DNA of 40,107 nt from Bacteriovoracaceae bacterium (GCA_947451425.1 CANGAC010000006.1:1-40107); one strand, 5' to 3'. Shown: positions 12,310-33,494, counted from the first letter of the stretch. Numbers and translations: made by a program. Notes: generated by a model not told the origin, from the letters alone.

Positions 12310-12972
12310 CTACAATTTATGAACGATATTCATGTCAGCTAACAGATCTGGAAGTTCGCTCGTAAGCATGGGAATTCCTTCGGCGTGAACTGGTGCTGAG
12401 GCTTCATCAATTTTCATGAAAAACCAGAATCCTACAAGGTGATATTTCATGATGCTTATAATAAGAGGCCGGGGATTTTTGAGGCCTTTTTCTGAAGCCG
12501 CTTTCTCACGTTCCGGGGCAAACCAGGCAAAGCGGTAGATGGATTCCACGAGATGCCGTGTCATGGGATAGTAGTGTGGGTAGGTGTGCATTTCATCAAT
12601 GATGATCTTTGCCACTCTCACGATTTCGGCAGGGTCATTGGTGTTAATTGCCAGAGAAAGCTTCTTTTTAAAATCTTTCCAGGGAATTTTGGGAAAGGGT
12701 CCTGGTGAGACACGTTTTTCCGGATCAAAATCCGGTGTGCGGTTCATGCTGACGAGTTCATCCTTGAGTAAGGGCACGCCATTTTTCTGATAGTAAGCGC
12801 AGCGCTTGTCCCAGAACCAGGTCGAAGGCACCATGAGGACTTCCAGTGCAATCAGAATCCGGAATCCGTTTTCTGATTTTCCTCCGGAGAGTTTTTTGTA
12901 AAAAGGTCTTCGTTCGCTGTTGATGCTGATGGATTCGGTGATGTGATCCAGAAAATAGTGGGGAAGGCTCAT
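12310..12972 (-). CDS. Unknown protein, last gene of the lipid-kinase/acyl-reductase operon
   Basis: This 220-residue protein has no signal peptide and no recognised domain. It is mostly helical and basic, and rich in aromatic residues (MHTYPHYYPMTRHLVESIY, HLVGFWFFMKIDEASAP). The C-terminal half could lie against or in a membrane. The start codon overlaps the stop of the acyl-reductase gene by 4 bases (ATGA), so translation is coupled. Being fixed at the end of an operon for acyl reduction and lipid phosphorylation suggests an accessory or oxygenase-like role, but no motif proves it. The His/Tyr clusters (HTYPHYYP) are noted but are not a known metal motif. Confidence 0.7.
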   Translation of the reverse strand: MSLPHYFLDHITESISINSERRPFYKKLSGGKSENGFRILIALEVLMVPSTWFWDKRCAYYQKNGVPLLKDELVSMNRTPDFDPEKRVSPGPFPKIPWKDFKKKLSLAINTNDPAEIVRVAKIIIDEMHTYPHYYPMTRHLVESIYRFAWFAPEREKAASEKGLKNPRPLIISIMKYHLVGFWFFMKIDEASAPVHAEGIPMLTSELPDLLADMNIVHKL

Positions 12973-15011
12973 CTGGCCTGGGCCTTATCTTTTAACTTCG
13001 CCATCGTGTGCTCTCGACAGAGTTCAATTTCTCTTTCGGTGATTTCTCCGGCATGGCCCATGATGGCCGAAAGCTTCACTCCGTGTTTTCTGGCGATGCG
13101 GTCAATCTCGCAGACTTTATCATACTGAAGGTCGCGTGAAATACTGAAGCTTTCGAATCTTCCTTCGAGAGCAAGGAGTGCTGTTTCCGCGAGACACGCG
13201 TACACGGAACTTCCCGGAAGCCCGATCGTCTGCGTGATCTTCACATCACCGGGAAGTTCAACTTCCCCTGAGGCAATGACCAGAACGTCGGGTCTTTTTG
13301 CTGCATCTTCGAGGCTGATATCAAAAGGGCGACTGACGTCACAGATCACACAACCAGGTTTAACTTTCTCGATGTCCATGACGGATTCGCCCTGGGCAGA
13401 CGTAGAAGTGATGATGAGATCACATTCCGGAGAGTAGCGATCCGGCGAACTCGTTCCGATGACTTCAGCGTTGGGGTTCTGTTCCTGAAGCTCTCTGACG
13501 AGTTCCAGAATCTTATAGGGTCTTGGAGCGGCAACGATGATTCGTTTCCACTGGTTCGTGAGAACCTTCGCGCAGACTTTTCCAATGGAGCCGGTGGCTC
13601 CGATGATCATCGCTGTTCCCTGATAAACGCCTTCGGATTTCGTGACCATTTTCATTTTCTCAATGGCAAAGCCCGCGGCCCAGAGAGTTGAGGCACTGGA
13701 AAGAGAATTCCCTGTGGTGACGGGAATCGGTGAACGGTTATTGACCGTCACTCCGGCGTCTCCCACGATTTTGGTATAAGCACCAAGACCGATGATTTTT
13801 GATCCCCGCTTCATCGCCATATCACACAAGCGGTTCATGGCGTTGTACATCTTCTCCGGAGACTGCTTCAGCATGATCTTGGGGGTCATGAGAATCATGA
13901 AGAGATCACCTTCAACTTCTTTCCCGGTAGATTCGGAGCGGATGCCGGTGATTTTCCCATAGTGATAGCCCGGGATTTTTCCCGCAATCTGCTCGACGTG
14001 AGGCCCGATGGGAGTGTTTGCAAGCGGTTTCCATGTCGGAGAAAGAAAAAACTGACTGGCCGACAGAGGATGAACAATAAAAGAAAATCTCTCTGAAGCA
14101 TTGGTCTCTTCCGAACGCGGAATATAAGTTTCGGGCTTCAGTTTCATGGTCGTGATAATGTCGAGGATATCTTCCTGCTCGAGAGTGCTCTTCCCAAGAT
14201 GGGCCATGAGAATGGCCTCGAGACCATTGAATCCCAGGTGAGGCATGCCGATGAAATCCGGAAAGCAGCTATAGACTTTCGAAACGTTGGCGTCCTGAAG
14301 TTTTTTCCTTGAGAATGTATCGAGCTGATCGATGATCACGACTTTCCCTGAGAGATCCTGCAGCTTAATGAAATCGAGCTGGGTTTCATTGACGACAAAG
14401 ATATCGGAATCAAAAAATGACTTCATCGTCGGGAGCTGGGCAATCTTAGAACGGAAGTCACGCTCTTTCAGGTTCTCGAGATTCAGCCGCTTCATGATGG
14501 GAAGGGCCGTCAGGAGAAAGGACTTGAGATCCTCGAGGCCGCGAATGACTTTCGGAGCACTGATCGCCATGAACGGATCAGCGAAGATGAGATTCGGATT
14601 AATTTCCTGATAGGCGGGAAGATAATCCCACTGCGTAATCCCGGAGAAAAAAGAAATACTCTTTCCCTTAAACAGGTACGGCTCTTTCTGGGCAAGGTTT
14701 TTGATGAAGAGGGGAAGTGCGGTGAGTTTCAGGCGGGAGCCATCAGCAATGGGAGTGTCTCCGGCCGCGCGTCGAAGTTCGAGCACCTGATTATGAGAGT
14801 GAACTTTTCCGTTCACTTTCACATCTGTCGGAAAGCCCCCGAAGGCCATGATGTCACACTGGTCTTTGTATCTTTTCACGAGCTCAAGGGCGAGCTTGAA
14901 ATTGAAATCCACTCCGAGACGTTTCACGCGGAACTGATCACCGAGAAGGGTTAGTGTCTGGTCAAAGTTCTCCGAAGCAGGACCCATGGAGATACAAATG
15001 ATTTCTTTCAT
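12969..15011 (-). CDS. Long acyl-ACP/CoA reductase-like protein (cyanobacterial AAR-type C-terminal half)
   Basis: This 680-residue protein has a C-terminal half (about 310-680) that resembles cyanobacterial fatty acyl-ACP reductase, which makes fatty aldehydes from acyl-ACP using NADPH. Seen: ERFSFIVHPLS, GLGAYTKIVGDAGVTV, TTGNSLSSASTLWAAG, a dinucleotide fold MIIGATGSIGKVCAKVL, and LPGSSVYACLAETALLALEG. The last holds Cys606, aligned with the AAR active-site Cys. Free-standing AAR is about 340 residues. The N-terminal ~300 residues (IICISMGPASENFDQ, DIMAFGGFPTDVKVNGKVHS) are an extra domain I do not recognise. It overlaps both operon neighbours by 4 bases. Expected product: aldehyde or alcohol from an activated acyl chain (inference). 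An alternative is a related acyl-thioester reductase acting on another carrier. Confidence 0.78.
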   Translation of the reverse strand: MKEIICISMGPASENFDQTLTLLGDQFRVKRLGVDFNFKLALELVKRYKDQCDIMAFGGFPTDVKVNGKVHSHNQVLELRRAAGDTPIADGSRLKLTALPLFIKNLAQKEPYLFKGKSISFFSGITQWDYLPAYQEINPNLIFADPFMAISAPKVIRGLEDLKSFLLTALPIMKRLNLENLKERDFRSKIAQLPTMKSFFDSDIFVVNETQLDFIKLQDLSGKVVIIDQLDTFSRKKLQDANVSKVYSCFPDFIGMPHLGFNGLEAILMAHLGKSTLEQEDILDIITTMKLKPETYIPRSEETNASERFSFIVHPLSASQFFLSPTWKPLANTPIGPHVEQIAGKIPGYHYGKITGIRSESTGKEVEGDLFMILMTPKIMLKQSPEKMYNAMNRLCDMAMKRGSKIIGLGAYTKIVGDAGVTVNNRSPIPVTTGNSLSSASTLWAAGFAIEKMKMVTKSEGVYQGTAMIIGATGSIGKVCAKVLTNQWKRIIVAAPRPYKILELVRELQEQNPNAEVIGTSSPDRYSPECDLIITSTSAQGESVMDIEKVKPGCVICDVSRPFDISLEDAAKRPDVLVIASGEVELPGDVKITQTIGLPGSSVYACLAETALLALEGRFESFSISRDLQYDKVCEIDRIARKHGVKLSAIMGHAGEITEREIELCREHTMAKLKDKAQAR

Positions 15012-16042
15012 CTGACAAGCTCCTTGGCCCGGGACATGATCGCAGGCAGATAATCAGCAATTAAGGGGCACTTCAATTGCGGATAATCTTTTTTCATGTT
15101 CGCGGTCGAATACCGGGTCGGGTTCAGGATGTAGGATTCAATCTCTGCGGGGATCTTGAGAAGGGGAAAGACTTTTCTCATCACTCCGAACATAGGAATT
15201 CTCTGGACCCTGAGATTAAGTCCGAAATACTTCGCCGTATCTTCCATCAGCGTTCCGACGAAGATTTTTTCCTCCGGAACAAGATGGTAAGTGCGGGTCA
15301 TGTGATGCGTGGGTTTATTGATCATCTCACTCATCCACTGGACGAGAACATTCACCGGTACCATCGGCATCGTTGCTGACGGGTGATAGGAAACCGGCAG
15401 GACGTTTAAAGGAATATGGCGCGTGTATTTTGAGAGCTGGTCAAAGAAGCGGAAGAAGTAGTAAGGGCCATCAATTTTATCCATCTCTCCAGTGACAGAG
15501 TCTCCGATCACGATCCCCGGGCGATAAATTCTAAGGGCGACGGTGGGAAGACGGGTATTCCGAACGAGCAGTTCGGCCTGCATCTTGGTCTGTGAATAAC
15601 TATCCAGGAAAGGTTTCCCCGGATCAAGGTCTTCTTCCAGGAATTCTCCGTCATGAACTCCGGAAACGGTGTAGGTGCTCATGTAATGGAACATCTGAAG
15701 CTTCTTCATCCTCTGAAGGAGGAACAACAGATTCTGAGTTCCGACGACATTGGAAACGTAAGCTTCTGTCTGGGAAACTGAAAGATCATAAGTGGCGGCC
15801 AGATGAACGACGGCCTCAATGGAGTTGGTGATGACTTCTGCACCTGAGACCTGATCAAGAATATCGTTGTTGGTGAGATCACCGGTCACAAACTGGATAT
15901 TCTTCTCGCCCCGGAACATCTCTTCAGCTTTTTCGAGACTTTGTTTTCTCACGAGGCAATAGATCTCATTTCCGGCACGGGCCAGAGATTTTGTCAGGCG
16001 CTTTCCGATGAAACCAGTTGCTCCGGTAACGAGTATTTTCAT
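15008..16042 (-). CDS. Extended SDR / thioester-reductase-like NAD(P)-dependent enzyme
   Basis: This 344-residue enzyme has an N-terminal NAD(P)-binding motif TGATGFIG (7-14). Other family marks are FVTGDLTNNDI, VVHLAATYDLSV, the SDR active-site YSQTK (Tyr149, Lys153) and TVALRIYRPGIVIGDSVTG. These place it in the extended short-chain dehydrogenases near thioester reductases and 3-beta-HSD/epimerases. The ATGA overlaps at both ends lock it between the lipid kinase and the acyl reductase. A role in reducing a fatty aldehyde, keto-acyl or thioester intermediate is the natural reading. The exact substrate cannot be told. No signal peptide or TM helix is seen, so it is cytosolic. Confidence 0.82.
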   Translation of the reverse strand: MKILVTGATGFIGKRLTKSLARAGNEIYCLVRKQSLEKAEEMFRGEKNIQFVTGDLTNNDILDQVSGAEVITNSIEAVVHLAATYDLSVSQTEAYVSNVVGTQNLLFLLQRMKKLQMFHYMSTYTVSGVHDGEFLEEDLDPGKPFLDSYSQTKMQAELLVRNTRLPTVALRIYRPGIVIGDSVTGEMDKIDGPYYFFRFFDQLSKYTRHIPLNVLPVSYHPSATMPMVPVNVLVQWMSEMINKPTHHMTRTYHLVPEEKIFVGTLMEDTAKYFGLNLRVQRIPMFGVMRKVFPLLKIPAEIESYILNPTRYSTANMKKDYPQLKCPLIADYLPAIMSRAKELVR

Positions 16043-17016
16043 GTGAGGAGAGGGATTTCATCCAGGGAATAACCTTTCCCGTGAATTTCATCGCCGTGTG
16101 AATAGACTTCAAGGCATTGCGGAATGACGCTGATATTGAGTTCCATGGAAGGATCCCAGGTCTCTCCGTCACCAAAGAAGTTCAGATAGGAGCCCGATAC
16201 AGAAATCATTTTCAGGTTATCCGTTTCGAAGCGGATAAGCTTTTTATCATTCTCCGGATGTCCGCCAGTCAGAAAGACCATCGCCGTCTTCAGGAAGTCG
16301 AAACGGTTCGTATGGGTGAAAACAGTCACGTTGAATTTTCCGTCTGTGTTACAGGTATCCGGGGCCACGTGAAGCGAGCCTGCGAGTTTCGGCTGGTTAT
16401 TAATGAGAATGAGAGGAGACATGACTTTCTTATCGAGAAGTGGAAAATCCGGTGACTCCATGTAAACTTCATGGAGCTTGAAGCGGGCACTTAAGAGATG
16501 TTTCGCGAAGACCGCCTGGTAAGCGTGCTTTCCGCTGGCCTTGAGAAATCCCTGAAACAGTTCTGAGTCTTTCCGGTATTGGTTCACGAGATTGGCGACT
16601 TCCTGAGCGATCCCGATACCGCCGTTACTCATGAGGTATTTTCCGTTCACATTGATCATGTCCACTTTTTTTGTACTTTGAGCGTGGAAAATATGAGCGA
16701 GTTTTTTTAAGGCACCATTTGTCCCGATTTCGTCAGCAAAATCGTTGGCGGTTCCCCCCGGAAGAACCATGAGCTTCGTCTGGCTACCGATCAGGTGCTG
16801 AGCGATGGTGTGACAGGTTCCGTCTCCGCCGATGGAGAAGATACATTCCACTTTATTCTCTCTATCTCTCTTAACCTGGGCCACCATCTCTTCGAGAGTT
16901 TCCGGCATATTAATCATCAGCTCATGACGGAAGAAATATTTCCGAAGCTCTTCGATCGTGAAGTTATGATTGGCCCCCGAGGCCTTGGGATTAAGGTAGA
17001 CTGAGATACTTCTCAT
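16039..17016 (-). CDS. Diacylglycerol-kinase-family lipid kinase (YegS/DgkB-like)
   Basis: This 325-residue protein shows the DAGK catalytic domain: a phosphate-binding start (ISVYLNPKASG), FSIGGDGTCHTIAQHL with GGDGT at 63-67, and LPGGTANDFADEIG. Later motifs include NGGIGIAQEVANLV and FFGDGETWDPS. Family members transfer the ATP gamma-phosphate to diacylglycerol, sphingosine-like bases or other hydroxy-lipids at the membrane face. It is the first gene of a four-gene operon, with AAAGGA before the ATG, and its last 4 bases overlap the SDR start. Given the reductases downstream, a long-chain alcohol or lipid hydroxyl is a reasonable substrate, but this is inference. Confidence 0.86.
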   Translation of the reverse strand: MRSISVYLNPKASGANHNFTIEELRKYFFRHELMINMPETLEEMVAQVKRDRENKVECIFSIGGDGTCHTIAQHLIGSQTKLMVLPGGTANDFADEIGTNGALKKLAHIFHAQSTKKVDMINVNGKYLMSNGGIGIAQEVANLVNQYRKDSELFQGFLKASGKHAYQAVFAKHLLSARFKLHEVYMESPDFPLLDKKVMSPLILINNQPKLAGSLHVAPDTCNTDGKFNVTVFTHTNRFDFLKTAMVFLTGGHPENDKKLIRFETDNLKMISVSGSYLNFFGDGETWDPSMELNISVIPQCLEVYSHGDEIHGKGYSLDEIPLLT

Positions 17017-23800: not shown

Positions 23801-24103
23801 CCACCGGCTTCGGACAACTACGGAACAACTTCCGTTAACATCACTCATACGTTTACGCTCAAAAATACCGGTGACACTGTTTCGTCAAACGTCACCATGG
23901 CCCTCGGTGGATCAAGTCCTGCATCTTTCGCGATCGGAACGGATAACTGCACGGGACTTCCTCTTGCCGCGGGAGCGACCTGTACTGTCCAGGTGACTTT
24001 CCTCGGAGCCTTTGTGACAACCGGAACTTACTCCGCAACCATCGGCGGTACTGCGGTTAGTGGTGGAACTGCAACGAACAATCTTCAGGGTAGAAGACCA
24101 TGA
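17813..24103 (+). CDS. Giant exported IPT/TIG-repeat surface protein (23 repeats)
   Basis: This is a 2096-residue exported protein. The N-terminus has Arg residues, a hydrophobic core and then FLSC-NK, so it is probably a lipoprotein with Cys29, although Phe at -3 is atypical. The ATG at 17861 is an alternative start, with GGGAG upstream but a signal lacking positive charge. Residues 39-1980 are 23 tandem IPT/TIG (Ig-like) repeats of ~84 residues, each with forms of P-x-V-T-x-V-S-P, G-G-T-x-V-T-I-T-G-T-x-F, G-A-T-V and V-T-N-x-D. Nearly every repeat has two Cys about 14-17 residues apart (...GGxxC... SITC), suggesting one disulfide per domain. The last 116 residues resemble an HYDIN/choice-of-anchor-D-type beta domain. 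A cell-surface adhesin stalk is the likely role. The next gene overlaps by 4 bases. Confidence 0.88.
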   Translation: MNRIITAFSGIGRAGTMWWSVVFLIFLSCNKPETKKDGFSVSSVTPSSGPIVGGTTISISGKFLDFVTSVKIDGTSCLSFELRSPELIVCVTPAHAEGTVSVDVTGPTDEVISKTFTYIPPVMSVTSISPAGGTDAGNTLLTVVGQNFETGSTITVGGLDCTSVQFISSTSMKCRTPANVVGSYPVVVTSPGGQTATAATSYTYSLSPTVTLVSPVSGTTGGGTVLTITGTNFVNPTVSLGGTPCVVTAKAATSITCTTGAKSPGAVTLRVVNSNANSVDVLSGYTYIRGPIPQSISPAFGVPGGGTSVTITGGNFKPLATVKIGGVDCTPVTVVSLTQIDCVTGAKAVGTYDVVVTNADGLDDRIVNGYSYRLPPPVVSSVAPSNGPIAGGTSITITGTDFQALATVKIGTVTCTSPVITATTITCTTGASTDGAQTVTVTNPDTLTGSLPSGFAYQAAPTVTAVTPSGGDVLGGTTISVAGTYFRAGATVSVGGVNCGSVIISSETLLTCVTGANAAGLAAITVTNTDGQFGTRAATYKYALPPVVTNILPAAGALGGGTLVTISGTGFVTGASVSVGGVACTTVTVVNATTLTCTTGIHAAGVANVVVTNSDMQASTLAAAYTFQAAPAVTTIAPAYGPIAGATSVTITGTGFLAGATVSIGGAACAVTATTATSISCTTGAGAAGASNVVVTNPDSQTGTLTTGFTYLAAPTISSVSPAFGPLAGGNTITITGTGFFTGVTMTIDSVACTTFTRVSATSLTCVVPAAAAGPVDIVVTNVDLQTVTSSNSYTYTGAPTVTAASPSAGALAGGTSVTLTGTNFFTGATVDFGGSACAVTSLSATSITCTAASHASGAVTVKVTNTDTQNGSAAALYTYQPAPTVSAVSPLYGPIGGGSVLTITGTGFVASATVSVGGTACPVSAVTSTSITCTSPVGTAGAVSVTVTNADTQSGTKASAFTYLNPPTVTAISKSAGALAGGTSIVLTGTGFVTGATVDINGSACAVTATTSTTISCTTSAHAAGTFDVDVTNVDAQVGTLTNGFTYQAAPAVTSVVASAGTLAGGTSVVVNGTGFVTGATVLFDTGSCVVTAVTATTITCLTPAHIAGAVTVKVTNTDLQFGSLATAYTYQAAPTITTVSPAVGSSAGGTTLTITGTGFVAGVTATVGGVSCPVTANTATSITCTSPVHAAGIVNVIVTNVDTQTGTKTNSFTYLDAPTVTSVTPAVGAVGGLKTVTVLGTNFYAGATVSFGGSACAVLSLSATSISCRTSAHAAGAVAVTVTNVDSQFGTLAGGYTYRPAPTVSTVSPAYGPIGGGTTLTITGSDFVSPVSVTVGTAACVVTAESATSITCTTGISPVSGSAAVTVTNPVDLQAGIKTGAFIYLRAPVITSVSPTAGALAGSTTISLVGTNFFPGATVTVGGVACTSVTVVSDTLITCSTPAGSAGAANVVVTNPDAQADTETNGYTYQAAPTVSTISPGSGRLSGGTSVTITGSDFVTGATVKIGGTNCTGVTFVNATTITCTTPAGVAGAQSVEVINADTQSGTAAGLYTYQSAPTVTSVSPNGGPVAGGTVVTVTGTNFLTGASMSFGGTVCTGLTVVSSSSITCTTPAKAAGAYTVTATNIDGQTGSATNAYTFRAAPTISAISPTIGATAGGTVITVTGTGFVTGATVTVGGVACTSVNVSSGTNLTCRTGANAAGSVTATITNSDTQTGTGGTYLYQVAPVVTSVSPTSSALAGGATMTITGSGFMAGATVTIGGTTCTSPTVVSANSITCTIPGKSAGAYSVVVRNTDTQTGTLASAITYRTPPTVTSVSPTMGAIDGGSTLTITGSGFVTGATVLVGSSSCVVGSVTSTSITCVTGSAVAGTYSLTVTNTDAQSGTRASSFTYVNPPTVTSVSLNTGTIAGGKTVTITGTNFYTGSTVDFGGSACTSVTVISTTSISCVTPANAAGAVTVSVISPYGATGSLAAGYTYVTTPALLAFVTGTSSPTPPASDNYGTTSVNITHTFTLKNTGDTVSSNVTMALGGSSPASFAIGTDNCTGLPLAAGATCTVQVTFLGAFVTTGTYSATIGGTAVSGGTATNNLQGRRP
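17927..23752 (+). repeat. 23 tandem coding repeats of about 253 bases (IPT/TIG units)
   Basis: Repeat units diverge in sequence but keep length and landmark motifs. The total of 5826 bases divided by 23 gives 253 bases. Some units are more alike than neighbours are: 10-11 resemble 15-16 (both pass from FGGSACAV to PAPTVS then YGPIGGG). Also, 11-12 resemble 22-23 (both have TQSGT or AQSGT then a NPPTVT linker). This pattern points to past segmental duplication. Confidence 0.9.
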
Positions 24104-24827: not shown

Positions 24828-24855
24828 TTGCAAAAATTCTGGATCACGAGACAAT
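24828..24855 (+). promoter_or_regulatory. Candidate promoter of the six-gene biosynthetic operon
   Basis: TTGCAA (24828-24833), a 16-base spacer and GACAAT (24850-24855) fit a sigma-70 promoter. The predicted start of transcription is near 24862, two bases before the ATG at 24864, so the message may be leaderless. This would exclude the upstream TTG at 24828 as the start codon. Confidence 0.4.
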
Positions 24856-24863
24856 CTTCTTAC

Positions 24864-25703
24864 ATGGAAACACTACAAAAAGACATTCTGACCTTTGATG
24901 GTCTGAGACTCAAAACAACAATCTTAAACCGGAACGTCGGAGCCTGGGTCGTCGTCACTCATGGAGTGGGCGAACACCGGGGCCGGCATGAGTACTGGCT
25001 TACAGATGAATTTAAAAACTACAACGTCATCCTTTATGATCTGAGGGGCCATGGAGAATCAGAGGGTGAACGCGGAAACGTAAAAGACTTTGATGATTAC
25101 CTGAAAGATATTGATTCAGTCACAGAGTTTCTCGTTTCAGAGTTCGGGATGAAAACTTTCTACCTCTTCGGTCACTCCATGGGTGGGCTCATTACCGCCC
25201 GCTGGATCCAGACGAGAAAGAACCGCGCTCTCTATCCGGCGAAAACAATTCTTTCCGCTCCAGGAGCAGGAACAGTGGGAATTCTGGGAATGATCACGAG
25301 TTCCATTCCGGCACTTGTTTATAAGAAGCTCGCGACTCTCCCGAGTCTTCCTTTAGGTGGGATGCTCGATCTCACAAAACTTTCTCACAATCCGCAGGTG
25401 TACCAGGATTACATTCACGATCCGAAAAATATCCTGAAGGTCCATTCGCATCTTTATTTTGATCTCCTGAACAAGGCCCAGGAAACCTTCCATAAGCCGC
25501 TCAATCCGCGCACACCGATGATGGTCATCATGGGAAGTGAAGACGGAGTCGTGAGTACTGACCTGGTGAAAAAGTATTTTGATAAGTTTGAACCAAGGGC
25601 GAAGTTTGTTCTCGTAAAAGATGCCTACCATGAGTTGTATATGGAAACACCGGAATACTTCGGTCAGTTTGCGAAGAACGTGAAAGAGTTTTTTTCTCCT
25701 TAA
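24864..25703 (+). CDS. Monoacylglycerol-lipase / lysophospholipase-like alpha/beta hydrolase
   Basis: This is a 279-residue cytosolic enzyme of the Hydrolase_4 (S33-like) family. VVVTHGVGEHRGRHEYW gives the conserved HG-x-GEH oxyanion motif, VILYDLRGHGESEGERG the family strand, and YLFGHSMGGLITARW the nucleophile elbow (G-H-S-M-G). MVIMGSEDGVVST holds the acid, and KDAYHELYMETPE the His. The family cleaves monoacylglycerols or lysophospholipids. The start at ATG 24864 is chosen over an in-frame TTG 36 bases upstream because family N-termini begin just before the DGLRL element. It is the first gene of the operon, with 13 bases to the DUF3419 gene. It may release or recycle the lipid substrate of the pathway (inference). 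Confidence 0.87.
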   Translation: METLQKDILTFDGLRLKTTILNRNVGAWVVVTHGVGEHRGRHEYWLTDEFKNYNVILYDLRGHGESEGERGNVKDFDDYLKDIDSVTEFLVSEFGMKTFYLFGHSMGGLITARWIQTRKNRALYPAKTILSAPGAGTVGILGMITSSIPALVYKKLATLPSLPLGGMLDLTKLSHNPQVYQDYIHDPKNILKVHSHLYFDLLNKAQETFHKPLNPRTPMMVIMGSEDGVVSTDLVKKYFDKFEPRAKFVLVKDAYHELYMETPEYFGQFAKNVKEFFSP

Positions 25704-25716
25704 CATCGGAACTCCC

Positions 25717-26823
25717 ATGACGGATAAATATTTTAAGTCGCTGAACTATTCTCTCGCCAATGAGGACACCTGGCCTGAAGTGAGACTCATGCGGGAGTGG
25801 AAGCCGAAGAAGATCCTGAGTGTCGCCGGAAGTGGCGGACGATCTCTCCCACTCCTGGCAGGAAATCCGGCAGAATTGTCTGTAGTGGATTTGTCTGAAC
25901 AGCAACTCTGGCTGGGGTCACTCCGCGAAGAAACGATCAGGAAACTCACCCATGAAGACTTCCTTCTCTTCTGGGGGTATCCGCCCTTTGACAGTGCCGC
26001 CTACAACCGGAAAAGAAAAGACCTCTTCTTTCAATTTGACCTCGAGCCATCAGCGAAAAATTATTTCATCACGCTTTTTGAATCTCTCTCCTGGGGATCA
26101 ATTCTCTACGAAGGAAAATGGGAAAAGACTTTCCGGAAGTTTTCCTATGTTACCCGCGCCATCATGGGACCCAAGCTCCTCATGGAGTCTTTGTCATGCC
26201 TTTCCACCGAGGAACAGGAAAAGTTCTACGTGGATAAGTTCCCCCGCTCACGCTGGGATCTTGTCTTCAAGATTCTCGGGAATGCCTCTGTCTTCAATGC
26301 GCTTTTGTATAAAGGGCACTTCGTTAAAAAGAATGTCCCGGAAAGTCATTTCGATTACTATAAGTCTGCGTTTGACAGAATTTTCACGAATACTCTCCTC
26401 CGCGGCAACTACTTTGCCCAGCTCTGTTTCTTCGGAAAGATTGTGACCAAAGAAGCGATTCCGGTTGAGGGAGATAATGAAGTCTTCACGGCGATGAAAA
26501 TCTGGCTTAACAAAAACCGCACGCATGCCTACCAGGGAAATATTCTTGAGATCATTCCCAGGGAACCGGCCATTTCGGAAATTGATTTCCTTTCTTTCAG
26601 TGATGTCCCTTCCTATTTTGAAGGGGAGACGGAAAAAAATTATCTTCAGATCGTAAAACCCAAGATGGCCATCGGGGGAGTTGTGATCGTCAGAAATTAC
26701 CTCCGGATTCCGGAAAATACGGATCTTAACGGTTACGAAGATATCACCGGCGAAGTCGCCCGTTATTTTAAGAACGAAAACATCCAGATGTACATCATCC
26801 GCGCGTACCGGAGAAAATCCTAG
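25717..26823 (+). CDS. DUF3419 / BtaA-like SAM-dependent 3-amino-3-carboxypropyl transferase
   Basis: This 368-residue protein fits DUF3419. The best-known members (BtaA) move the 3-amino-3-carboxypropyl group of S-adenosylmethionine to diacylglycerol in betaine-lipid synthesis. Seen: KYFKSLNYSLANEDTWPE near the start, a SAM-binding loop KKILSVAGSGGRSLPLL (about 31-47), VVDLSEQQLWL with the acidic residue Asp58, FLLFWGYPP, and a late stretch DFLSFSDVPSYFEG then GGVVIVRNYLRIP. The family match is good. The exact acceptor is not known, and no BtaB-type N-methyltransferase follows. Instead a formyltransferase starts immediately after the stop (no gap), so a formylated amine is a tempting idea. 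Confidence 0.82.
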   Translation: MTDKYFKSLNYSLANEDTWPEVRLMREWKPKKILSVAGSGGRSLPLLAGNPAELSVVDLSEQQLWLGSLREETIRKLTHEDFLLFWGYPPFDSAAYNRKRKDLFFQFDLEPSAKNYFITLFESLSWGSILYEGKWEKTFRKFSYVTRAIMGPKLLMESLSCLSTEEQEKFYVDKFPRSRWDLVFKILGNASVFNALLYKGHFVKKNVPESHFDYYKSAFDRIFTNTLLRGNYFAQLCFFGKIVTKEAIPVEGDNEVFTAMKIWLNKNRTHAYQGNILEIIPREPAISEIDFLSFSDVPSYFEGETEKNYLQIVKPKMAIGGVVIVRNYLRIPENTDLNGYEDITGEVARYFKNENIQMYIIRAYRRKS

Positions 26824-27570
26824 ATGCCGCTCCGGGGGATGCTCGTCACTTCTGAGGTCACATTTGTTGGTGAGAATTACCACCAGGTGATCCTTTCGCT
26901 GGCGAAAAACCCTCATATCCTGGGTCTTATTGTGATTCAGAATCGCGCGCCTTCTCTTTCTGTCCTGGGACTACTCGCAGCCGTTTCGGGTGCGGCCCCG
27001 CGTTTTGGTTTTCAGCTCTTCAGGAACAATCTTTTTCCGGGGACTGAAGATAAAGTTTCGGCCTACAAAAAAGAAGGGAAAGAAGTTCACTTCACCAAAG
27101 ACATCAATGCTCCGGAAACTCTGGAGTACCTCAGATCACTTTCCCTTGATCTCATTATCAATGCCCGCTCACGCTGCTTTTTCCGGGACGACGTGCTGGC
27201 ACTTCCGAAACTGGGCTGCATCAACATTCACCATGGACTTCTGCCTTATCAAAGGGGAGTCATGTGTGACTTCTGGGCGCATATGTATGGTCGCCCCTTT
27301 GGTTTCACTGTTCATCAGATGACAAAAAAAATCGATGATGGTCCGATCCTGAGAGTGGAAGAGGTCAAACTTCTTCCGGAGAGTTATACCAAATCCATTT
27401 TCGAAGGCTCCAAGCGCGAAGCTGTGGTGTTATCCGAAGTCCTGGATGATCTCGACAGGAAACGGGTCATTGCCGGAGAACCCAATCTCAAAACACCTGA
27501 TACAAAATACTGGAAAAATCCGAAGCTCATGGATTTTTACCGTCTAAGGCTGAAAGGAATTAAAGTATGA
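26824..27570 (+). CDS. Formyltransferase (10-formyl-THF-dependent type, Fmt/PurN-like)
   Basis: This is a 248-residue formyltransferase-fold protein. The catalytic trio is visible: Asn113 in LIINARS, His136 in INIHHGLLPYQRG (the HxSLLPxxxG motif), and Asp171 in KIDDGPIL (DxGPI). It lacks the C-terminal tRNA-binding domain of methionyl-tRNA formyltransferase, so it is not a normal Fmt. It also does not sit with pur genes, and PurN is shorter. Similar proteins formylate sugar amines or antibiotic amines. It starts one base after the DUF3419 stop, with CGGAGAA as ribosome site, and overlaps the next gene by 4 bases. Its substrate is likely an amine made by this operon (inference). Confidence 0.85.
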   Translation: MPLRGMLVTSEVTFVGENYHQVILSLAKNPHILGLIVIQNRAPSLSVLGLLAAVSGAAPRFGFQLFRNNLFPGTEDKVSAYKKEGKEVHFTKDINAPETLEYLRSLSLDLIINARSRCFFRDDVLALPKLGCINIHHGLLPYQRGVMCDFWAHMYGRPFGFTVHQMTKKIDDGPILRVEEVKLLPESYTKSIFEGSKREAVVLSEVLDDLDRKRVIAGEPNLKTPDTKYWKNPKLMDFYRLRLKGIKV

Positions 27571-29963
27571 ATAAGATTATCGCGATCCACGGAAATCCCG
27601 GACATAGCGAAGACTGGACTGAAGTAAAAAAACTTCTTCCCAAAGACGCTGAGTTTCTGGCCCTTGATGCGTACGACCCGGAGCTTTTAAAAAAGTTACG
27701 CTCTTTCAACGGACCTTTTATTCTCGCGGGGTTTTCGCTCGGCTGTTACACGATCATGCGCCATCTTCCGGAGATAAAAGATAAAGTCTGTGGTATTGTC
27801 ATGGTGGCCCCTTATCTTTCTTCTGAGAAACCACTTTCCGGAACTGCGAAGGCACTCCTGGGACTTCCGGTTCTCAATAGTGTTCTGATTGAGAGCAGTA
27901 AGAAAAAATCTGTCGCGGGATTTCTGGAAAACATGATCCATCCTCAGAAGATGGGCGATCATCCCTACTACAAAACTTTTCTCACCCGTCTTGAGACTAC
28001 GGATCTCTGGGCGAAAACGGTCAGAAGAAAAATCGACGCGGAAAATAACCCCCTGACAAAATCCTCATATCAGATTCCGGTCATTGCTCTGTGGGGGAAA
28101 GACGACAAAACATCCAATCGCCAGAAACAGTCTTCGATGCTGGAAGGATTTTCCAAAGTTCAGCACAAGGAACTCGTCGGTGGCGGACATGCACTTCTGT
28201 GGTCCCATGCGCGTGAAGTGGCAGCTGCCCTGACGGATGTCGCGAAAGTGGAAACGAAGATCGGTTACTACCCGGGGATGGATGTCAGAAATAACGTTTT
28301 AAATTACCTCGAGGGTCACCTTCGCGATTTCCCGACGAGAACTGCGCTTCGCTGGGGAAAACGGGGTGCACTTGAGGCCTGGGATAAAACCATGACCTCG
28401 GCGATTCCTCACGATGAAATCAATTACGCCCAGATGGCCGGAAGGATTTCTGCGTTCGCCAATGGGCTCAAAAAAATCGGCATCGCTAAAGGTGACCGGA
28501 TTATTATTTTCCTTCCGATGTCCCTGGATATGTATGTGGCGATGTTCGCCGTTCAGAGAATCGGTGCCATTGCCGTTTTCCTGGATTCCTGGGCCAGAGC
28601 GGGTCATCTCGGTGCCACTGCGGAATGCGTGGGACCCAAGGGCATGGTGAGCTTTAAGCAGGCCTTCGATCTCGTTGACCAGGTGGAAGAGTTCAAGAAA
28701 ATGCCTCTTCGGATCATGTATGGTCCTGGTGAGAATTTCACGCATAAGTTTGAAGAACTCATGGTTCCCGGTGATTGTCCGATGGAGCCGGTGGAATCAG
28801 AAACTACCGCCCTCATCACTTTCACGACTGGATCAACCGGAAAACCTAAAGGAGCGAACCGCACGCATCGTTTTCTTTCGGCCCAGCATCACGCCCTCTC
28901 GCATGTGATTCCCTATGCAGCGGCCGACATCGATATGCCGATTTTTCCGATCTTCTCCCTGAATAATCTCGCTACCGGAGTGACGACAGTTCTCCCAGCG
29001 ATTAACCTCGCCGCACCAACTGACATGGATCCCGCGATCCTTGCGAATCAGGTGCTGAATCACAAGATCAACTGTGCCACCATGTCTCCCTCAAACCTCG
29101 TGGGTCTCTCAAAATTCTGCGCGGAAAACAAGATCATGCTGACTCAGATGAAGAGAATGGTTACCGGGGGAGCTCCGATTTCCCGCGATGATGTAGAGAA
29201 ATATTATAAGATCGCTCCTCAGTCAGAGCTCTGGGTCCTTTACGGATCAACGGAAGCCGAGCCCATGGCCCACATTGAAGGCCGGGACATGCTGAAGGAG
29301 AAGAGAAATGCAGATGCAGAAATCGTCGAGGAAGGTGTGAACGTCGGTCACATCTCTGAAGACGTGGATTACAAATTCATCAAGCTCGTGGATGGCCCGA
29401 TCACTCTTGGACCTAAAGGCTGGAGTGATACGGAAGTTCCTGTGGGTGAAGTCGGGGAATTCATCTGCACCGGCGATCACGTCTGCAAAGAATACTACAA
29501 TAACCCGGACGCGTTTCTTGCGACCAAGATCAAAGGTCCCGATGGAAGAGTCTTCCACCGTACCGGAGACCTTGGGTATCTTGATCAGGAGAAAAACCTC
29601 TGGTTAGTCGGGCGCGTGAATAACGCCATCGTCAGAGAAGGGAAGTACTATTTCCCGGTGAAATCCGAAGTCATCATGAAGAGACTCGCGTTTACGTATC
29701 GGTGTGCCTTCTTCGGTCTTCCGGATGATAAACTCGGCCAGAAAACCTGTGTCGCGATTGAACTTCCTTCAGGAACGGATCTTGCGACCTTCAAGTTCTC
29801 TGACGCCAAGACTGAAGTGAAGAGAATTTTCGCCAAGAACAAAACACCACTGGATGAAGTGTACTTCGTAAAATCAGTTCCGATGGATCCGAGACACCAC
29901 TCAAAAGTGGAGTACGCAGTGCTTAAGAAATCTCTCTCTGAACCGGGAGTGATCATTGGGTAA
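27567..29963 (+). CDS. Serine alpha/beta hydrolase fused to an OleC-like ANL adenylating enzyme
   Basis: This is a 798-residue two-domain protein. Residues 1-225 form a small hydrolase with elbow AGFSLGC (Ser57), acid in LWGKDDKT (Asp179 or Asp180), and GGGHALLW (His208). Residues ~245-798 form an ANL ligase: the P-loop ITFTTGSTGKPKGANRTH (417-434), LYGSTEAEP, FHRTGDLGYLD, and a C-terminal PMDPRHHSKVEYAVLKK with Lys780 as the expected catalytic lysine. The DPRHxxK ending and the DGPI segment are typical of OleC, the beta-lactone synthetase of olefin synthesis. OleB-OleC fusions are known, but OleB uses an Asp nucleophile whereas here it is Ser. A different hydrolytic step, such as thioester or ester cleavage, is therefore likely. 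No OleA thiolase or OleD is in the cluster. Confidence 0.85.
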   Translation: MNKIIAIHGNPGHSEDWTEVKKLLPKDAEFLALDAYDPELLKKLRSFNGPFILAGFSLGCYTIMRHLPEIKDKVCGIVMVAPYLSSEKPLSGTAKALLGLPVLNSVLIESSKKKSVAGFLENMIHPQKMGDHPYYKTFLTRLETTDLWAKTVRRKIDAENNPLTKSSYQIPVIALWGKDDKTSNRQKQSSMLEGFSKVQHKELVGGGHALLWSHAREVAAALTDVAKVETKIGYYPGMDVRNNVLNYLEGHLRDFPTRTALRWGKRGALEAWDKTMTSAIPHDEINYAQMAGRISAFANGLKKIGIAKGDRIIIFLPMSLDMYVAMFAVQRIGAIAVFLDSWARAGHLGATAECVGPKGMVSFKQAFDLVDQVEEFKKMPLRIMYGPGENFTHKFEELMVPGDCPMEPVESETTALITFTTGSTGKPKGANRTHRFLSAQHHALSHVIPYAAADIDMPIFPIFSLNNLATGVTTVLPAINLAAPTDMDPAILANQVLNHKINCATMSPSNLVGLSKFCAENKIMLTQMKRMVTGGAPISRDDVEKYYKIAPQSELWVLYGSTEAEPMAHIEGRDMLKEKRNADAEIVEEGVNVGHISEDVDYKFIKLVDGPITLGPKGWSDTEVPVGEVGEFICTGDHVCKEYYNNPDAFLATKIKGPDGRVFHRTGDLGYLDQEKNLWLVGRVNNAIVREGKYYFPVKSEVIMKRLAFTYRCAFFGLPDDKLGQKTCVAIELPSGTDLATFKFSDAKTEVKRIFAKNKTPLDEVYFVKSVPMDPRHHSKVEYAVLKKSLSEPGVIIG

Positions 29964-30822
29964 GTGGCTCACGTTCACCAAAGAAAGGTTTAAGCCCTTA
30001 GAGTATATCCCTCTCATCGTCATGTTCGTGGCCGCGAACTATCTCTTTTCCATCCGTCTTTCCGGAGGAGGATTTGAGCTTTCGCCTCTCGCTCTGATTT
30101 TTGTTTTCCTTGCCACCCTTTGCTTTTTTTTCCGGATGCGGCTCTTTGATGAAATCAAAGACTACGAAATTGACCTGAAAATCAACCCGCACCGGCCACT
30201 TGCCAGGGGACTCATCTCTGTCCGTGAAGTAAAGCGCACAATTATTGGTATCATGATTTTTGAACTCGTTCTCATGTCAAACCTCGGGGCCATTCCTTTC
30301 TTTCTTTATCTCTTTGCCCTTTTTTACTCCCTTCTTATGTATGAGGAATTCTTTATTGGCGACTGGCTCCGTCCCCATCTCACCACCTATGCTGTTTCCC
30401 ATACGATCGTTGTAGGCTTTCTCTCTTTTGCGATTATTTCCTGTGTGCTGGGATTTACTGCTCTTAACTTTTCACCGAATATCTTTCTCTTCTGTCTCTC
30501 TCACTGGTGCATCTTCAACCTTTTTGAATTTGCGCGAAAAACTTTTGCTCCTTCAGAAGAACGCCCTAATGTCCCAAGCTATTCCAATATTTTTGGTCTC
30601 AAAGGGGCCTATGCCCTTTCTGCATCTCAGGTTGTTATCAGTTCGGTGGCCTTGTATTGCTCCAGCGAGATCCGTCCTGACTGGGCCTTCCTCATCGCGG
30701 GCGCATTCTTCTGTGTTCTTTCGGTGCTGACCCTGAAAAAAGTCTCCGCCTTCAGAGGGATCGCAACTGCTTACCTGGCGCTCTATTTTCTTCTTCTTAT
30801 TATTTTACTCCGGAGTTTTTAA
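29956..30822 (+). CDS. UbiA-family prenyltransferase
   Basis: This is a 288-residue integral membrane protein with about 8 hydrophobic segments. The first UbiA motif is clear: Asp65, Asp69 and Asp73 in RLFDEIKDYEIDLKINPHRP, then RPLARG. The usual second Asp-rich motif is replaced by FEFARKTFAPSEERPNVPSY (Glu191, Arg194, Lys195, Glu201/202). UbiA enzymes attach a prenyl or similar chain from a diphosphate donor to an acceptor in the membrane. Translation is predicted to start at TTG 29956, with GGGAG 6 bases upstream, overlapping the ligase gene by 8 bases. GTG 29964 is out of frame. The substrates are not predictable; the location suggests joining a chain to the cluster product. Confidence 0.8.
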   Translation: MGKWLTFTKERFKPLEYIPLIVMFVAANYLFSIRLSGGGFELSPLALIFVFLATLCFFFRMRLFDEIKDYEIDLKINPHRPLARGLISVREVKRTIIGIMIFELVLMSNLGAIPFFLYLFALFYSLLMYEEFFIGDWLRPHLTTYAVSHTIVVGFLSFAIISCVLGFTALNFSPNIFLFCLSHWCIFNLFEFARKTFAPSEERPNVPSYSNIFGLKGAYALSASQVVISSVALYCSSEIRPDWAFLIAGAFFCVLSVLTLKKVSAFRGIATAYLALYFLLLIILLRSF

Positions 30823-33494
30823 TGCTCGTTACGAAAGAGTCCACGACCTTCTTTGCAAAAAATGAATCCGGAGGAAAGGGCTACAATCTTTTTCTCATGA
30901 GCCAGAGTGGATTCCCTGTTCCGGAATGGGTGGTTCTCGGGAAGCGCCACTTTGAGGGATTTCTTGACAGCTCGGGCCTTCGTCCGAAAATCCAGGGGAT
31001 TCTTGAAGGCTTCCTTGTGGGAACGATTTCCGGGAAAGAGACTGAAGAATCGATTACCAAACTCATCAAGGGAACTCCGCTACCCGCGGATATTGATAAA
31101 CTCGTCGATGTTGGCATGCAGACTCTTGGGAAAGAGACGATGATCTCTGTCCGTTCTTCCGCGGCTGATGAAGACGGAAGTTCTCACTCTTTTGCGGGCC
31201 AGCTTTCAAGCTTTCTCTACGTCACAGGGAAGGCCCAGATCGTGGAATCCATCAAAGGCTGCTGGGCCAGTGCCTATTCCGAACGGGGCCTTTCTTACCG
31301 GAAAGAAAACGAACTCGATGTCCTGAAAATTTCCGTTGCCGTGGTTCTCCAGCGGATGATTGATCCGGAGAAATCCGGAGTGATGTTCACCTGTGATCCG
31401 ATTGCCAAGAAGCTCGATAAATTCGTCGTCTCATCAGTTTACGGAGTGGGTGAAGGACTTGTTTCCGGAATCCTCAATGCTGATTCTTTCTGGCTTTCTT
31501 CGGAAGACGGAAAACTGATTTCTGAAGACATCGTTCCGAAAGAACAGATGCTCAAAAAAGGTCCCAATGGCCATTGCGCCACTTTGCCTGTGGAAAAAGC
31601 TCTCGCCGACGCTCCCTCTCTCAATCAGAAAAATCTCTCTGACCTTTTTGAACTCGGGAAAAAAATCCACAAGGACTACCGGCGTCCACAGGATATTGAG
31701 TGGGCGATTGCCGAGGGCAAAGTCTGGCTTCTCCAGACGAGACCCGTCACCACAATTGATCAGGACCTCCAGGGTTATATTAACCTCTGGGACAATTCGA
31801 ACATCGTGGAAAGTTACGGCGGACTCACGTCACCACTTTCGTTTTCCTTCGCGCTTCGTAACTACAAGGCCGTGTACGTTCAGTTCTGCGAAGTCCTGGG
31901 GCTCTCGAACGAAATCATCAAAGACATGGATTCGTATCTTTCGTACATGCTGGGATCGATCAATGGCCGCGTCTTTTACAATCTCTTTAACTGGTACAAG
32001 CTCGTCGGCGTTCTTCCGGGATTTAAGTCTAACAAAGAGTTCATGGAAACGATGATGGGAGTTTCTGAAGGCCTCTCGCAGGAAATTGAAGAAAGAACCA
32101 AGTCCCATCCTTCCTGGGGGACGTTCCGCGGAAAACTCCGGACGGCGACCACCGGATTTCACTTCCTCAAATATCACTTCATCATTCAGAGTGTGGTGGA
32201 AGACTTTCTCACCACCTTCCACAAAGACTATGACCGCTTCAAAGCGATGCCACTCACGCGCATGCGCGGAGATGAGCTCATTAACGTCTACATGGAAGTG
32301 GAACGGAACATGCTGGGCCGCTGGAAGGCACCCATCATCAACGACTTCCTTTGCATGGTTCACTTCGGGCTCCTAAGAAAACTCACTCTCAAATGGTTTG
32401 GTCCGCAGTTTGATTCTCTTCAGAATGATCTTCTCGCTGCGGAAGGGGGACTCGAGAGTGCGGAACCAACCAAGGCGATGATCAAGCTCGCTCACATGGC
32501 CAACCAGAAGCCAAAGATCAAAGACATCATCCTCGCGGTTGATCCGAAAGACGGAATGGAAGCGATCAAGCAATCTGAGTTCCATGAGTTTTATGCGGCC
32601 CTCGAAAAATACATCGAAAAGTACGGCTTCCGCTGCATGAGTGAGATGAAACTCGAAGAGATCGATCTCGTGACTGATCCTTCATATCTGTTTGTTTGCC
32701 TGAAAAACTATCTCAAGGCCGCAAGCTTGCCGGTGGAAGACGATTCTAAGGAAAAAGAAAGACGAGCAGCTGCTGAAAATACCGTGAGAAAGGAACTCTC
32801 CGGCTTCCGGAGGATGATGTACTTCTGGGTCTTGAAACACGCCAGAAAAGCGGTAAAAAATCGGGAGAATACGCGCTTTGCCCGGACCCGCATCTACGGA
32901 GTGGCCCGTACGATCTTCCGCTCCATCGGTGAGGATCTCGCTTTCATCGGAGCGACGAAAGAACCCCGGGATATTTTCTGGCTTACGATTGAAGAAGTCT
33001 TCGGGATCTATAATGGAGCACTTCCGACTTACAATCTCAATGACCTCATTGATCTCCGGAAAAAAGAATACGAAAAGTATGCGGAAGAACCGAGTTCACG
33101 GGTTGTGACGAGGGGAGCGGTCTATTGGAAAAACGTTTTCCAGAATGAAGAAGTCGCCAACATCGCCACTGACGAATACGATCTGAAAGGTCTTCCGTGT
33201 TCGCCAGGTATCATCGAAGGAATTGTGAAAGTGGTGATTGATCCCACTGACAACCTGGAACTCAATGGTGAAATTCTTGTGACCGCAAGAACCGATCCGG
33301 GATGGGTTCCGCTTTATCCGTCGATCTCTGGGCTTCTCGTTGAACGCGGAAGTCTTCTTTCTCACTCGGCGATTGTTGCCAGAGAAATGGGCATCCCGGC
33401 GGTCGTGAGTGTGCCGGGATTAATTAAGACAATTAAGACAGGGATGCGAGTGCGTCTTGATGGGAAAGCAGGGACGATCAAGATCTTAGAGTAA
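30822..33494 (+). CDS. PEP-synthase-family phosphotransferase, rifampin-phosphotransferase-like architecture
   Basis: This 890-residue protein has three parts. An ATP-grasp domain (about 1-315) has Lys19 in GGKGYNL and Arg111 in SVRSSAADEDGSSHSFAGQ. The middle domain begins near Asn321 (NLWDNSNIVESYGGLTSPLS). A C-terminal mobile phosphohistidine domain has His848 in RGSLLSHSAIVAREMGIPAV. It lacks the PEP/pyruvate-binding TIM barrel, so it is not PpsA. The layout matches rifampin phosphotransferase (865 residues), which uses ATP to phosphorylate a small molecule, giving AMP and Pi. Its ATG overlaps the UbiA stop by 1 base and it is the last gene of the operon. The acceptor is unknown. Phosphorylation of a pathway intermediate or a polyprenol is inferred. 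Confidence 0.85.
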   Translation: MLVTKESTTFFAKNESGGKGYNLFLMSQSGFPVPEWVVLGKRHFEGFLDSSGLRPKIQGILEGFLVGTISGKETEESITKLIKGTPLPADIDKLVDVGMQTLGKETMISVRSSAADEDGSSHSFAGQLSSFLYVTGKAQIVESIKGCWASAYSERGLSYRKENELDVLKISVAVVLQRMIDPEKSGVMFTCDPIAKKLDKFVVSSVYGVGEGLVSGILNADSFWLSSEDGKLISEDIVPKEQMLKKGPNGHCATLPVEKALADAPSLNQKNLSDLFELGKKIHKDYRRPQDIEWAIAEGKVWLLQTRPVTTIDQDLQGYINLWDNSNIVESYGGLTSPLSFSFALRNYKAVYVQFCEVLGLSNEIIKDMDSYLSYMLGSINGRVFYNLFNWYKLVGVLPGFKSNKEFMETMMGVSEGLSQEIEERTKSHPSWGTFRGKLRTATTGFHFLKYHFIIQSVVEDFLTTFHKDYDRFKAMPLTRMRGDELINVYMEVERNMLGRWKAPIINDFLCMVHFGLLRKLTLKWFGPQFDSLQNDLLAAEGGLESAEPTKAMIKLAHMANQKPKIKDIILAVDPKDGMEAIKQSEFHEFYAALEKYIEKYGFRCMSEMKLEEIDLVTDPSYLFVCLKNYLKAASLPVEDDSKEKERRAAAENTVRKELSGFRRMMYFWVLKHARKAVKNRENTRFARTRIYGVARTIFRSIGEDLAFIGATKEPRDIFWLTIEEVFGIYNGALPTYNLNDLIDLRKKEYEKYAEEPSSRVVTRGAVYWKNVFQNEEVANIATDEYDLKGLPCSPGIIEGIVKVVIDPTDNLELNGEILVTARTDPGWVPLYPSISGLLVERGSLLSHSAIVAREMGIPAVVSVPGLIKTIKTGMRVRLDGKAGTIKILE

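Follow-up and report, generated by a model that had tools for sequence, protein, structure and literature searches.

In betaine-lipid synthesis (diacylglyceryl trimethylhomoserine, DGTS), BtaA transfers an aminocarboxypropyl group (PMC10491745). Other described systems with related enzymes are those for prodiginines and tambjamines (PigE, TamH, and PigC), the Ole pathway for olefins and beta-lactones, archaeal ether-lipid assembly (DGGGP synthase and CarS), and the dikinase-like enzymes rifampin phosphotransferase (RPH) and phosphoenolpyruvate (PEP) synthase. Here we examine an operon of six plus-strand genes, A to F (24864-33494), in a 40,107-nucleotide stretch of DNA (the window) from a Bacteriovoracaceae bacterium (GCA_947451425.1, CANGAC010000006.1:1-40107), the source genome being a draft in 328 contigs that is 89% complete. 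An earlier note, made from the sequence alone, had proposed that the six genes form an undescribed lipid-like biosynthetic pathway. The open-reading-frame table reproduces their common direction and their spacings of 13, 0, -4, -8, and -1 bases, and Pfam and NCBIfam place the genes in the six broad families that the note had named. We find that the operon is one half of a larger conserved locus and, with considerable confidence, that this locus is of a lipid-biosynthetic type, as the note had suggested of its apparently undescribed pathway.

The larger locus emerged from a search for B in 98 related genomes, from which 33 regions were fetched and compared. B to F recur jointly in dozens of loci of Bdellovibrionota, so the possibility that the genes are rarely adjacent, which the note had offered as grounds for abandoning its proposal, clearly fails. 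In the recurrent layout F-E-D-C lie on one strand and c4-c5-c3-B are divergent from them, and this synteny extends over dozens of contigs of Bacteriovoracaceae, Halobacteriovoraceae, and Oligoflexia; most Bacteriovoracaceae have B to F next to c3, c4, and c5. The closest named contigs to the window are metagenome-assembled genomes (MAGs) of Bacteriovoracaceae, one piece of which is 85-87% identical in c3, and the complete set, with C, is carried by an isolate, Bacteriovorax sp. BSW11_IV (L101), which is in culture (PMC4511183). The six genes are thus not the unit that they had been taken for: at least c3, c4, and c5 were missing from it, and gene A does not belong to the conserved set, since apart from the window the region of the sister genome G023 is the only fetched one to have it at the operon position. 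Five of the six operon genes (B to F) are conserved.

The members of the locus also occur together across the 98 genomes. Of these, 35 have B, 28 have c3, 30 have a cluster-type E, and 29 have a cluster-type F, and B is found in every genome that has cluster-type E or F. By Fisher's test, uncorrected for relatedness, the associations have p values of 6e-16 (B with c3), 3e-19 (B with F), and 5e-21 (E with F). Twenty-four genomes have all of B, c3, E, and F, and 23 of these also have C or its apparent counterpart c6, described below. One genome (G027) has the C-D-E-F block and B-c3 on a single contig but 1.17 Mb apart, at 0.56 and 1.73 Mb, respectively; because both parts are present though unlinked, they are evidently kept together without adjacency. 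The presence of the cluster is patchy even inside the genus of the window. The GC content of the operon (0.46-0.50) matches that of the window (0.49), and hence there is no compositional sign of recent transfer.

The product of B (25717-26823, plus strand) belongs to the BtaA family (DUF3419) and is a putative S-adenosylmethionine (SAM)-dependent aminocarboxypropyl transferase. It matches PF11899 over residues 3-328 with an E value of 1e-30 and a score of 107.7 bits against a cut-off of 28.2, and its predicted structure is a Rossmann fold of the SAM type. A fold search returned only Rossmann SAM enzymes, none with an E value below 0.001, and a profile search of PDB gave only a weak methyltransferase match. 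B is about 25% identical to rhizobial DUF3419 proteins. Its closest plasmid homologue, at 33% identity, is from a Deefgea piscis plasmid (NZ_CP054144.1, L161:19249-23100), in a short operon that also encodes a SAM decarboxylase (speD), an iron-containing redox enzyme, and a serine hydrolase, a gene content that suggests aminopropyl or aminocarboxypropyl transfer. On the Rhizobium plasmid pMK-2 (L162:1-6158) a DUF3419 gene lies alongside genes for a ketoacyl-ACP synthase III, an oxidoreductase, an MBL-fold hydrolase, and a CoF synthetase, possibly another DUF3419 biosynthetic cluster. The locus thus resembles the betaine-lipid system in having a BtaA-family protein that would be expected to transfer the aminocarboxypropyl group of SAM to a lipid. 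It differs from that system in the low identity of B, in the lack of a BtaB N-methyltransferase among the conserved cluster genes, in having many extra enzymes, and in an amine that would carry a formyl or acyl group.

This last expectation comes from C (26824-27570, plus strand), whose product is formyltransferase-like (Formyl_trans_N, E value 3e-13, over the cut-off), matches N-formyltransferases and Fmt in PDB, and has catalytic residues (Asn134, His136, and Asp171) that are invariant in an alignment with 11 relatives. No relative of C was found among viral contigs. Loci that lack C carry c6 instead, a gene for a 340-residue GNAT-type acyltransferase (best Pfam match 8e-12; N-acetyltransferases in PDB). 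C is present in 13 of the 98 genomes and c6 in 16, with none having both (a lack of overlap with a chance probability of 2e-5 within the 35 B-bearing genomes), and no fetched locus holds the two together. The c3 tree calls for at least four switches between C and c6, and the B tree for five. The c3 of the window belongs to a clade with 100% support (14 rows) whose other members are c6-bearing relatives of its genus, and its F groups with C-type, Oligoflexus-like loci (six rows, 98%). Likewise, four c6-bearing loci (L084, L093, L095, and L103) nest with three C-bearing ones (L043, L089, and L092) on both the c3 and the B trees. From these discordances, which mark two clear exchanges, it follows that the core was retained while the tail was swapped. 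The simplest reading of the exchange is that one amine intermediate would be alternatively formylated or acylated. The proposal of the note that SAM-dependent aminocarboxypropyl transfer is followed by N-formylation gains strength from the exchange of C with an N-acyltransferase and is the most economical account of B and C, although the transfer itself is deduced; that B installs the amine and C or c6 caps it we put at slightly short of an even chance.

In the divergent half, c3 (12969..15011, minus strand) encodes a 680-residue protein whose residues from about 310 to 674 resemble acyl-thioester (acyl-ACP) reductases of the PigE/AAR type (NCBIfam PigE, E value 3e-48; in PDB, PigE at 6e-40 and AAR at 1e-12). 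The predicted catalytic Cys606 aligns with Cys294 of AAR and is invariant in 15 relatives, and the predicted structure matches AAR (Foldseek E value 2e-18, TM-score 0.8 over the target). By its modeled fold and predicted catalytic cysteine, c3 is a thioester reductase of this type, with a putative aldehyde-forming activity. Residues 1-305 form a conserved domain that matched no family with confidence, Foldseek being confident for the reductase half only. Next to c3 on the same strand are c5 (15008..16042), predicted to encode an extended short-chain dehydrogenase/reductase (SDR) of the fatty-acyl-reductase or "male sterility" type (NAD_binding_4, E value 3e-38; PRK07201, 3e-64), and c4 (16039..17016), predicted to encode a lipid kinase of the DAGK/YegS family (DAGK_cat, E value 1e-16; YegS_C, 5e-8); both are syntenic in relatives.

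Homologues of c3 were also seen in other settings. Homologues of its N-terminal domain stand alone, without the reductase domain, in two genomes (G032:C5:220886-221803 and G045:C49:25591-26499). Tandem homologues occur in Desulfobacterota (L138, L140-L142, and L144), where they adjoin a member of the WS/DGAT wax-ester synthase family in L140 and L141 and lie near an iron-containing alcohol dehydrogenase with SCP2 in L138; they are a probable, uncharacterised fatty-acyl reductase family. Around the homologues of c3 in Marinobacter, Anaeromyxobacter, and related genomes lay mainly housekeeping genes (ppk, ppx, hemB, and dus), which were uninformative. A gene for a protein of 856-861 residues in genomes lacking c3, suspected of being a substitute for it, proved to encode a MacB/FtsX permease.

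Gene D (27567-29963, plus strand) encodes a fusion. Its N-terminal part (27567..28280) resembles a serine alpha/beta hydrolase (Abhydrolase_6, E value 3e-8), with a GxSxG motif at residue 55 (GFSLG) and a histidine near 208, and is a separate gene in some relatives. The C-terminal part (28281..29963) resembles an adenylate-forming ligase of the OleC kind (AMP-binding, E value 5e-42; PRK09274, 1e-102), with the A10 lysine in PRHHSK. The note had called this part OleC-like, which holds insofar as the NCBIfam OleC models match it (E value 2e-61); a beta-lactone-making OleC is unsupported, as the scores of 208 and 193 bits are far below the respective cut-offs of 900 and 850 and there is no OleA in the locus.

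Gene E (29956-30822, plus strand, with a TTG start) encodes a predicted UbiA-fold membrane protein (UbiA, E value 2e-14) whose only PDB profile match is DGGGP synthase (1e-7). Its first aspartate-rich motif, DExKDxxxD, is invariant and aligns with N62, D66, and D70 of MjDGGGPS. The donor-side motif of MjDGGGPS is D180-x2-D183-x3-D187 (PMC9385802); in E it is replaced by an invariant ExxRK (E191xxR194-K195), with Lys195 at the position of D180, and this holds in aligned homologues from both the C and the c6 variants as well as in more distant E-type homologues. Moreover, several relatives (for example, L040 and L056) have E fused to the C-terminal end of the ligase. The replacement and the fusions together make ordinary prenyl transfer, the activity assigned to E in the note, doubtful, and the fusions argue that ligase and E would act in succession. 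Thus, the likeness to archaeal ether-lipid assembly, which consists in this PDB match and in a CarS-like gene found in the related clusters described below, is offset by the missing donor-side aspartates, by no GGGP synthase having been seen in the loci, and by a chemistry of acyl reduction rather than of isoprenoids.

The last gene, F (30822-33494, plus strand), encodes a protein that resembles the dikinases PEP synthase, RPH, and PigC (PPDK_N, E value 1e-72; PEP-utilizers, 1e-22), with a phospho-acceptor predicted from its motif at His848. F has in common with RPH and PEP synthase an architecture of ATP-grasp and phospho-histidine swivel domains but lies below the cut-offs for both, scoring 336 bits for RPH (cut-off 999) and 288 bits for PEP synthase, as well as below those for PigC (398 of 1300) and RedH (401 of 1350). 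By its profile match, F belongs instead to PRK06241.2-2, an uncharacterised family named "phosphoenolpyruvate synthase", which it passes over its full length (1181.8 bits, cut-off 883, residues 1-890). The label of rifampin phosphotransferase therefore does not stand. We also reject antibiotic resistance of the RPH type. F adjoins a UbiA-like gene both here and in related clusters.

In relatives the cluster is adjoined by LolD/LolC/LolA-like genes, by MacB/FtsX permeases, or by an MMPL protein. A related group of clusters (variant 3; L145, L146, and L151, in G003, G016, and G022), widely conserved in Bdellovibrionota, contains UbiA-like, F-like, CarS-like (CDP-archaeol synthase), P450, and GNAT-like genes and a LolDCE/LolA-like exporter, together with a gene for a 972-residue PigE-like aminotransferase/thioester reductase, an architecture reported for PtTamH (PMC9594044). 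The theme common to these clusters and the kin of our locus is lipid assembly.

Taken together, the genes suggest the following scheme. In the core part of the locus an acyl thioester would be reduced to an aldehyde by c3, and the aldehyde processed by the SDR c5 and the lipid kinase c4. B, also of the core, would add an aminocarboxypropyl group derived from SAM, and in the tail part, which includes D, E, and F, the new amine would be capped by N-formylation through C in the lineage of the window and by the GNAT N-acyltransferase c6 in others. The ligase of D would adenylate a carboxylate and pass it to the physically coupled E, which in the membrane would link it with a second lipid; F would use ATP, releasing AMP and Pi, to phosphorylate or condense by way of a phospho-histidine. 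Because exporters of the LolCDE/LolA-like, MacB-like, or MMPL kinds adjoin the genes in relatives, the product would probably be sent to the outer envelope. The product is probably an unusual nitrogen-containing lipid whose amine is capped by a formyl or acyl group. The scheme is built on gene content, synteny, co-occurrence, the exclusivity and exchange of C and c6, catalytic motifs, and the fusion of D with E; its reactions, substrates, order, and product are all deduced, and as a complete account it is tentative, being at best somewhat less probable than its alternatives combined. A bolder form, which we regard as rather unlikely as a whole, would have the locus make an undescribed class of membrane aminolipid of predatory Bdellovibrionota that is bound for the outer membrane, with an exchangeable formyl or acyl cap and with an E that has lost the binding of a prenyl donor and uses the acyl-adenylate of its fused ligase.

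Several observations weigh against the proposed lipid pathway. The product and the activities of all members are putative, being read from sequence, and the aminocarboxypropyl role of B is drawn by analogy from one characterised branch, that of BtaA, to which it is distantly related. C and c6 always accompany different types of D and E, and therefore may belong to larger alternative modules rather than being strict equivalents. Four genomes retain B and F but lack c3; the core reductase can therefore be dispensed with. We saw no exporter within the window. Finally, the Fisher tests ignore relatedness, and many of the genomes are incomplete MAGs.

Could the product be a diffusible natural product rather than a lipid? 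In a tambjamine- or prodiginine-like pathway c3 would supply a fatty aldehyde and F, which resembles PigC and RedH, would join an amine to an activated carbonyl by condensation. The two systems share a PigE-type reductase domain with a catalytic cysteine, a PigC/RedH-like ATP-using enzyme, and an AMP ligase; c3 and PigE are homologues, the RedH and PigC models give F a better score (about 400 bits) than those of RPH and PEP synthase do, and in the variant-3 clusters an F-like gene occurs together with the PtTamH-like protein. Nonetheless, F is far under the PigC and RedH cut-offs, c3 has an unmatched N-terminal domain and no aminotransferase domain, and there are no genes for pyrrole formation or carrier proteins, whereas the lipid kinase, the UbiA-fold membrane enzyme, and the LolA/LolCDE-like exporters indicate a lipid. 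We consider such a product unlikely.

A variant of the Ole pathway is much less probable still. It would take D as an OleB-OleC-like fusion and c5 as an OleD-like reductase, and indeed a hydrolase is fused here to a ligase that OleC models match, an SDR is present that the OleD model matches (1e-15), and OleBC fusions occur in Gram-positive bacteria. However, no OleA thiolase is found among the genes annotated in the window or those that recur in related loci, c5 reaches only 58 of 580 bits and D 208 of 900, the nucleophile of the D hydrolase is a serine where that of OleB is an aspartate, and the Ole pathway has no role for B, C, E, or F. The plain Ole pathway is therefore rejected. Nor is it at all probable that the genes have no common pathway and are co-transcribed fortuitously or share only regulation. 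The operon does hold passengers, since conservation extends neither to gene A nor to the repeat-protein genes upstream; for B to F and c3 to c5, chance grouping is refuted by recurrent synteny and co-occurrence, with the order conserved across families, both parts retained in the genome in which they are unlinked, a gene fusion, and the exchange of blocks. The capped, nitrogen-containing lipid remains the reading that we favor, and no known pathway matched it in the searchable literature, our coverage of which was partial and excluded MIBiG; within the same partial coverage nothing was found on DUF3419 clusters or on combinations of the enzyme names.

Gene A (24864-25703, plus strand, with a mechanical TTG start at 24828) encodes a hydrolase resembling monoacylglycerol lipases and lysophospholipases (Hydrolase_4, E value 1e-42). 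A 2096-residue protein (17813-24103) with repeated P..G...GGT (IPT/TIG-like) motifs and a lipoprotein-like N-terminus, together with small genes, separates c3-c5 from the operon; it was not seen between the halves of the locus in relatives. Adjoining c3 is c14 (12310..12972, minus strand; 219 residues), which has no Pfam or NCBIfam match, recurs in five loci of the first set and in more of the second, and adjoins the core in several relatives of the window's genus. Near the core genes lies a gene (9366-11348) for a 661-residue protein with an Lnb N-terminal periplasmic domain.

If the proposed pathway is correct, the predatory bacteria of a large group produce a class of lipid for which nobody has searched, and the exchange of formyltransferase for acyltransferase predicts two product masses. 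A UbiA-fold enzyme whose donor motif has been replaced and which is fused to an adenylating ligase would represent a new use of that fold, and the lipid itself may have a bearing on how the envelope of these predators survives inside their prey.

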